Below, piece after piece: positions 61,030 through 61,449 of a stretch of 64,000 nucleotides of DNA (the stretch's first letter is position 1; the number at the start of each line of letters is the position of its first letter). Position numbers and translations under genes: made by a program. The notes beneath the pieces are model-generated. The model searched no databases, had not been told where the DNA came from, and saw only the letters and a list, made by a program, of their open reading frames with translations. This stretch comes from Spongiibacter taiwanensis. Its GTDB lineage: Bacteria; Pseudomonadota; Gammaproteobacteria; Pseudomonadales; Spongiibacteraceae. The stretch covers positions 2,232,001 to 2,296,000 of the forward strand of contig NZ_CP098455.1 of NCBI RefSeq assembly GCF_023702635.1, read 5' to 3'.

Positions 61030-61230
61030 ATGGAAACCCCAACTTCTCTGAGTGCGCGATTGCTGGAATTGCAGCGAAAGCACCGCGCTCTCGACGAGGA
61101 GATCAGCGAACTTTCCCTCAATCCTTATCAGAATCAATTGCTCTTGCGGCGCTTAAAAAAGGAAAAGCTGCGACTGAAAGACAATATTTCCTGGTTGAAG
61201 AATGCGCTGATTCCAGATTTAGATGCCTGA
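61030..61230 (+). CDS. YdcH family (DUF465) small protein
   Basis: A 66-residue helical protein with the DUF465 pattern (SARLLELQRKHRALDEEISELSLN, LLLRRLKKEKLRLKDNISWLKN). E. coli YdcH is uncharacterised. It forms an alpha-helical hairpin. It lies directly upstream of the GacA-box and small-RNA region at 61245-61406. Confidence 0.88.
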   Translation: METPTSLSARLLELQRKHRALDEEISELSLNPYQNQLLLRRLKKEKLRLKDNISWLKNALIPDLDA

Positions 61231-61245
61231 TTGGCGCCAATGATG

Positions 61246-61263
61246 TGTGAGATATATCTCACA
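61246..61263. promoter_or_regulatory. GacA/UvrY binding site (UAS)
   Basis: TGTGAG-N6-CTCACA, part of a perfect 20-bp palindrome at 61245-61264. The GacA consensus is TGTAAG-N6-CTTACA and the E. coli UvrY site upstream of csrB is TGTGAG-like in one half. It sits ~64 bp upstream of the predicted RNA start at ~61319, with a -10 (CATAAT, 61307-61312) but no -35, as expected for an activated promoter. The half-site spacing (TGTGA-N8-TCACA) is 2 bp too wide for CRP. Confidence 0.7.
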
Positions 61264-61318
61264 CGCCGTGTCCTACATTGCTGCTACTACGTACTTTTGC
61301 TTAGTCCATAATGATTCG

Positions 61319-61406
61319 GGTCAGGAAGACCTAGGCATACAATGGATTGTGTGCGACATGGGATGTCTTAAATTTAAAAGCCGGAGCCTAGTGCTCCGGC
61401 TTTTTT
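61319..61406 (+). ncRNA. CsrA/RsmA-sequestering small RNA (RsmX/Y/Z-CsrB type)
   Basis: An ~88-nt transcript, from ~61319 to 61406, predicted from a -10 box, three GGA- or GGG-containing hairpins and a strong terminator. Hairpin 1 is GGTC-AGGAA-GACC (61319-61331). Hairpin 2 is GCATACAA-TGGA-TTGTGTGC (61335-61354, 8 bp). Hairpin 3 is GACAT-GGG-ATGTC (61355-61367), with GGA over the loop and stem. A further GGA sits in the terminator stem. GGA presented in hairpin loops is the CsrA/RsmA binding determinant. With the GacA box upstream this is a clear regulatory RNA of the Gac/Rsm pathway, though gene context and family name need a covariance search. Confidence 0.75.
61376..61406 (+). terminator. 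sRNA terminator
   Basis: AAAAGCCGGAGC (61376-61387) with GCTCCGGCTTTTTT (61393-61406) and a 5-nt loop. Perfect 8-bp GC-rich stem plus A/T flank and six T. Confidence 0.9.
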
Positions 61407-61449
61407 ATGCCTTACACTTTTGCTCCCGCCGCTGCTGATACCCGCCCGC

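Follow-up and report, generated by a model that had tools for sequence, protein, structure and literature searches.

A candidate GacA-controlled CsrA-sponge RNA of a new sequence family in Spongiibacter taiwanensis and its relatives

Between a DUF465 gene and a cmoM-like methyltransferase gene, with a riboflavin synthase alpha gene further upstream, the genome of Spongiibacter taiwanensis carries a short transcription unit that we assign, at a probability of roughly 0.92, to a stand-alone Csr/Rsm-type RNA sequestering CsrA under GacS/GacA control. The assignment is made from sequence, from which we infer transcription, GacA binding, CsrA binding and an effect on CsrA targets. The RNA exposes conserved GGA motifs in three hairpin loops, lies downstream of a box that by its sequence is of the GacA/UvrY type (typical of the class, though not universal) and appears to be a gene of its own, with a promoter predicted from the sequence and an intrinsic terminator, in a host that encodes CsrA and GacS/GacA. 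Counting against the assignment, three exposed GGA are close to the lower limit for RNAs of this class. As this sponge-type anatomy matches neither an Rfam family nor the literature searched, we regard the sequence family as new and the kind of RNA as well known.

Results

Anatomy of the RNA unit

The window, namely the whole stretch of 64,000 nucleotides that was analysed (contig NZ_CP098455.1, positions 2,232,001 to 2,296,000), had been described in an earlier note as containing an Rsm/Csr-type RNA under a GacA/UvrY box; positions below are counted from its first letter. On re-reading of the sequence, the perfect 20-bp palindrome of that description was found (GTGTGAGATATATCTCACAC), with TGTGAG-N6-CTCACA at 61246-61263 inside it (in full TGTGAG-ATATAT-CTCACA), and so were the -10 box, hairpins 2 and 3 with their GGA (the third as UGGGA) and the intrinsic terminator (Table 1). 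Hairpin 1, given in the note as 61319-61331, was likewise present, with slightly narrower limits here and one further G-C pair possible.

Table 1 Features of the RNA unit (window positions)
Feature	Position	Strand	Remarks
DUF465 gene (Pfam PF04325)	61030-61230		upstream neighbour of the RNA unit
Palindromic activator box GTGTGAGATATATCTCACAC	61245-61264	.	putative GacA (UvrY) site
-10 element CATAAT	61307-61312	+	without recognisable -35
Small RNA gene	61320-61406	+	87 nt, U run included; inferred start G61320
Hairpin 1, GUC-AGGAA-GAC	61320-61330	+	loop GGA 61324-61326; one covarying pair
Hairpin 2, GCAUACAA-UGGA-UUGUGUGC	61335-61354	+	loop GGA 61344-61346; two covarying pairs
Hairpin 3, GACA-UGGGA-UGUC	61355-61367	+	GGA 61361-61363; conserved, without covarying pair
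Rho-independent terminator	61376-61406	+	stem of 12 bp with U run; fourth GGA in stem; five covarying pairs

Seven bases separate the -10 element from the inferred start, and the last three bases of CATAAT (AAT) are the same in all 21 sequences aligned. A -10 element without a recognisable -35 is as in activator-dependent promoters. Neither the promoter of the RNA nor its terminator was listed by a simple promoter/terminator scanner, which in our reading is due to the absence of a -35 hexamer and to the A run in the stem, with which part of the U run pairs. Three further bases between the box and the -10 element (T, C and T; window 61278-61285; columns 38, 41 and 45 of alignment A2) are invariant in all 21 sequences; they stand 42, 39 and 35 bases upstream of the inferred start, form no -35 hexamer and possibly mark a second protein contact.

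Folding from the inferred start yields all four hairpins. With 25 extra upstream bases, which are probably not transcribed, the first part pairs differently (z -4.0). Hairpin 3 can be drawn with UGGGA between its stems or, as in the computed fold, with a GGG loop and one extra U-A pair. Of the four GGA in the RNA, three are placed in hairpin loops and the fourth in the stem of the terminator. A 63-aa open reading frame at 61247-61438 was rejected; it would span the box, the promoter and the RNA, and it is unlikely as a conserved frame since the length of the RNA differs by single bases among relatives.

Conservation and covariation

A DNA search of 57 genomes recovered the stretch in 16 of the 18 genomes of the genus, its own included, and missed G002 and G007; matches outside the genus (G026, G043 and G044) were confined to the terminator. 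From these 16 sequences, its own genome among them, a covariance model (R1) was built, which detected the RNA in all 18 genus genomes with E ≤3.4e-12, the 16 training genomes matching by construction and G002 and G007 being independent. In the sister genus g2 (three genomes), R1 found nothing convincing (no match in two, one match at E 0.03 in the third). A second model, R2, matches 61242-61407 at 147.9 bits, the sequence of the window being included in the model. A pattern scan gave 16 loci, ten of which scored at least 137 bits with R2 and belong to Zhongshania (six), Spongiibacter (three) and Neomelitea salexigens (one); the scan loci in Exiguobacterium (four), Rhodanobacter (one) and Rhodocyclus (one) had no match to R2 at E 1 and were taken as chance.

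Alignment A1 (16 rows) argues for the predicted structure. Standard pairs fill 98.1% of its cells against a shuffle mean of 94.5, and both-sided changes occur in 8 of 27 pairs, against a shuffle mean of 2.3 and equalled by none of 500 shuffles; slid partners are only 34 to 43% paired. The eight covarying pairs lie in the terminator and in hairpins 1 and 2 (Table 1), so that for hairpin 3, which has none, the support comes from conservation alone. GGA is the sole invariant part of each of the three loops in the 18 genus rows, conservation of the other loop bases ranging between 39% and 89% when one gap column is disregarded. It is also kept in 21 of 21 rows when three from another family are added and two flanking columns per side are allowed, the alignment of these three rows being less sure in hairpins 1 and 2. 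The earlier note had stated that its reading would fall if the loop GGA and the palindrome were unconserved in relatives. Both are conserved: all 18 genus rows carry GGA in each of the three loops, and in all 16 aligned relatives the spacing between box and RNA hardly varies, though 6 of 18 boxes are inexact.

The box and its putative regulator

Among the 16 aligned relatives, the centre of the box lies 65.5 bp upstream of the inferred RNA start in 13, and in the other three this distance is 66.5 bp. Mean identity of the box columns in the 18 genus genomes is 95%, compared with at most 74% in the spacer (25 windows of 18 columns each). The exact pattern TGTRAG-N6-CTYACA has a single occurrence in the 3.7-Mb genome, at the box itself, and this uniqueness says little alone, as about one exact box per genome is expected by chance (0.9 by our own estimate). 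Across the 18 genomes the exact pattern was found 22 times, 12 of them at the RNA, the remaining ten equalling the count of a reversed-pattern control (10), so that the pattern exceeds its control at the RNA only. Six of the 18 genomes have, at the RNA, a box that departs from the exact pattern.

In excerpts of the E. coli study (PMC4682653), the footprinted UvrY site of csrB is TGTGAGAGATCTCTTACA, centred at -183/-182; it has the same length as the box described here and near-identical half-sites, whereas the box here lies at about -65 from the inferred start. From excerpted sources, too, Pseudomonas and Shewanella boxes read TGTAAG-N6-CTTACA, and the rsmY box of Pseudomonas SS101 is TGTAAGCATTCTCTTACA (PMC4353343). 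The view of the earlier note that the box is of the GacA/UvrY type is supported by near identity with the footprinted E. coli site and by the presence of GacA, a GacS/BarA-type kinase and CsrA in the genome.

A different dimeric regulator, for example of the NarL/FixJ type, might bind the box instead and place the CsrA sponge under other control. GacA binding is a prediction, and the inner six bases ATATAT are mostly conserved as well, although a TGTRAG-N6-CTYACA site does not demand them. Against such a regulator, the E. coli csrB and Pseudomonas sites agree with the box at both half-sites and with equal spacing, and we regard this explanation as improbable. A CRP-type site was rejected, TGTGA and TCACA being 8 bases apart at the box compared with 6 in the CRP consensus.

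Two other sequences of this kind were noted. In G008, a box whose sequence equals that of the UvrY site of E. coli csrB lies away from the RNA (L125, G008:C1:2815073-2815090), within a 48-bp inverted repeat in which 46 of 48 positions are self-complementary; it scores 17.4 bits with R2, and a GGA RNA was not evident there by eye. The recurrent sequence TGTAAGTTCATCCTTACA, found in six genus genomes, was set aside, apparently lying within coding sequence in the three loci read by eye.

Gac/Csr proteins encoded in the genome

GacA, a GacS/BarA-like sensor kinase and two CsrA proteins are encoded in the genome. GacA scores 294.8 bits against the curated cut-off of 280 for the UvrY/SirA/GacA equivalog, and its gene adjoins uvrC and a pgsA-like gene (the latter named by eye). 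The kinase has sCache_4 (a narrow match, 22.9 versus 22.1), HisKA, HATPase, receiver and Hpt domains. Its best NCBIfam match is BarA, at 668 of 890 bits and thus under the equivalog cut-off, so that it is named GacS from best match and domains. Both csrA genes score above the cut-off, and one lies beside an aspartokinase-like gene (by eye). The second (L050, G000:C1:166966-167130, 74 aa) is located outside the window amid plasmid- or phage-like open reading frames, as judged by eye; its product could compete for the RNA.

Relation to catalogued RNA families

An Rfam scan of the window returned no family at gathering score. The Csr/Rsm families CsrB, CsrC, RsmX and RsmZ had no match at E 5 around the RNA, nor did they appear among the matches listed for the 16 genus loci (own included). 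For RsmY (RF00195), none of the 12 matches in the own genome at E ≤10 falls at the RNA locus, and the best, located elsewhere, reaches 22.4 bits against 57. The covariance search proposed in the earlier note thus turned out negative, with no catalogued sequence family matched. Sub-threshold matches to Leu_leader, MicC, OmrA-B and others were discarded, all being under their gathering scores. In the open PMC literature, no paper joining Zhongshania with GacA was found, and a search for Spongiibacter with CsrA gave a Legionella secretion paper only.

An antisense RNA acting by base pairing, with incidental GGA loops and a regulator other than GacA, would fit the missing Csr/Rsm match in Rfam and the nature of the weak sub-threshold matches, which are leaders and base-pairing RNAs such as MicC; the terminator is the best-matching part in the three Rfam alignments examined. 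However, in RNAs that act by pairing the conserved open seed is usually longer, whereas GGA is the invariant unpaired part of each loop here; the box, moreover, is compatible with GacA/UvrY, and the genome encodes the partner proteins. We consider an antisense RNA very improbable.

Gene neighbourhood

For the downstream methyltransferase gene, the best NCBIfam match is CmoM at 213.7 bits, under the cut-off of 366, and the gene name is therefore tentative. A DUF465-like open reading frame precedes the RNA in all 18 genus loci and in L099, and not in L087; in relatives it was judged by C-terminal sequence, Pfam being applied to the open reading frame of the window only. In three loci (L014, L016 and L017) no downstream gene remained after the open reading frame filter, and a CmoM-like start was seen by eye in L014 and L016.

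An attenuator or leader of the cmoM-like gene would accord with the terminator of the window lying about 40 bases before that gene on the same strand, with the leucine leader as the best (sub-threshold) Rfam match and with a short frame ending (M/V)R-x-x-M-x-K-(F/L) common to 8 of 18 genus RNAs. This explanation is hardly credible and is largely refuted by relatives: L013, L087 and L099 have a convergent gene as the next one listed, and the RNA is kept there all the same and so is not a leader of cmoM, 8 of the 18 genus RNAs have no frame of at least 8 codons and 2 have other frames only, G048 has tandem copies, and the common short frame overlies hairpin 3 and its conserved bases.

A second RNA and relatives across the order

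The earlier note took the RNA to be the Rsm/Csr RNA of this organism. As to kind this is supported by the GGA loops, the box and the partners, but it is not the only one, since a second related RNA exists in the same genome outside the window (G000:C1:1830217-1830410, 60.9 bits with R2). Its region (L104, G000:C1:1830194-1830424) shows GUCAGGGAUGAC, then a nested GGA hairpin and then a terminator. The second RNA keeps the right half of the box only and has relatives in G012 (L105) and G008 (L170). This half-site, CTCACA in G000 and G012 and CCCACA in G008, ends 56 nt upstream of the RNA in all three genomes, as in the main RNA, and all three loci adjoin a convergent FKBP-like gene (named by eye). 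Among the matches listed when the 18 genus genomes were searched at the DNA level, the body of the second RNA beyond the terminator appeared in G000 and G012 only; the G008 copy was found through R2.

At E ≤0.01, R2 has matches in at least 151 of 390 genomes, and many of the weaker ones, among the matches listed, consist of the terminator part only. Loci matched by R2 outside the genus were read by eye from 14 genomes, and 20 loci in 14 genomes of six families (f29, f30, f45, f16, f14 and f20) were accepted. Where scored, their boxes agree with the pattern at between 8 and 12 of its 12 positions, and a half-site is present at G049:C8; R2 includes the box and was trained on three of these loci, so that the presence of a box there is not independent evidence. 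G048 has four box-plus-RNA copies (L087 at G048:C18, also L174 and L175); every copy has a box to itself, and two stand in tandem at a distance of about 220 bases. GGA-rich RNAs of greater length occur in f16 (L162, L164, L165, L167 and L177), f14 (L163 and L168) and f20 (L166 and L169) under boxes holding 11 or 12 of 12 positions; one Rfam scan with E up to 1 matched no Csr/Rsm family to them. In G033, G223 and G261 the GGA-rich stretch extends well past the R2 match, indicating much longer, more CsrB-like RNAs. One relative from a different family of the order scored 29.4 bits with rsmX (RF02144), below the threshold of 56.

Several matches were rejected on reading. Those of R1 in G157, G287, G346 and G043 (L088) and an R2 match at G006:C1:2560799 (L176) had no convincing box or GGA hairpins, and L103 (G010) and L090 (G030) resemble, by eye, tRNA sequence ahead of a terminator.

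Discussion

Compared with known systems as described in excerpts of the cited papers, the RNA is small and poor in GGA. In E. coli, GGA repeats of CsrB and CsrC bind CsrA, as predicted for the GGA repeats here, with 22 motifs in CsrB and 14 in CsrC (PMC11882849) compared with four in this RNA. RsmX, RsmY and RsmZ of Pseudomonas share with it a GacA box, short length and loop GGA, but they are 110 to 133 nt long (PMC7911923, PMC4353343) rather than about 87 nt, have TGTAAG where TGTGAG is found here, and gave no covariance match. The Rsm RNAs of P. brassicacearum are described with 6 to 10 GGA, 2 to 8 of them exposed, against four here, three of them in loops. Pf1-Pf3 of Pseudoalteromonas fuliginea are, like the RNA proposed here, Csr sponge RNAs of a marine gammaproteobacterium, with 9 to 25 GGA motifs compared with four; Pf2 and Pf3 were discovered from GGA motifs, promoter and terminator (PMC11882849).

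For the CsrA sponge under GacS/GacA control, we propose that the GacS/BarA-like kinase would phosphorylate GacA, which would then bind the palindrome about 65 bp upstream of the RNA and switch on the promoter with its -10 element and no recognisable -35. The transcript of about 87 nt would display three GGA in hairpin loops and capture CsrA, by which mRNAs held by CsrA would be freed.

More speculatively, GacA-driven sponges may form a lineage that spans the order, with this RNA as its shortest member; the promoter geometry would be fixed, placing the box some six helical turns upstream of the start, and the number of GGA hairpins and copies would vary. In this genome it would be paired with the half-site second RNA, giving a two-step response to GacA phosphorylation. 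We offer this scheme as a tentative one and think it rather unlikely to hold in full.

CsrA sponge RNAs are, according to excerpts of PMC11882849, usually without sequence conservation and hard to find computationally. The covariance model derived from the present RNA reaches other families of the order. Being near-minimal, with three exposed GGA, the RNA is well suited to studying the minimum number of sites in a functional sponge. The type of RNA is well known, while this sequence version is new and conserved in a group of marine bacteria, and it is likely the link from Gac to CsrA in Zhongshania and Spongiibacter.
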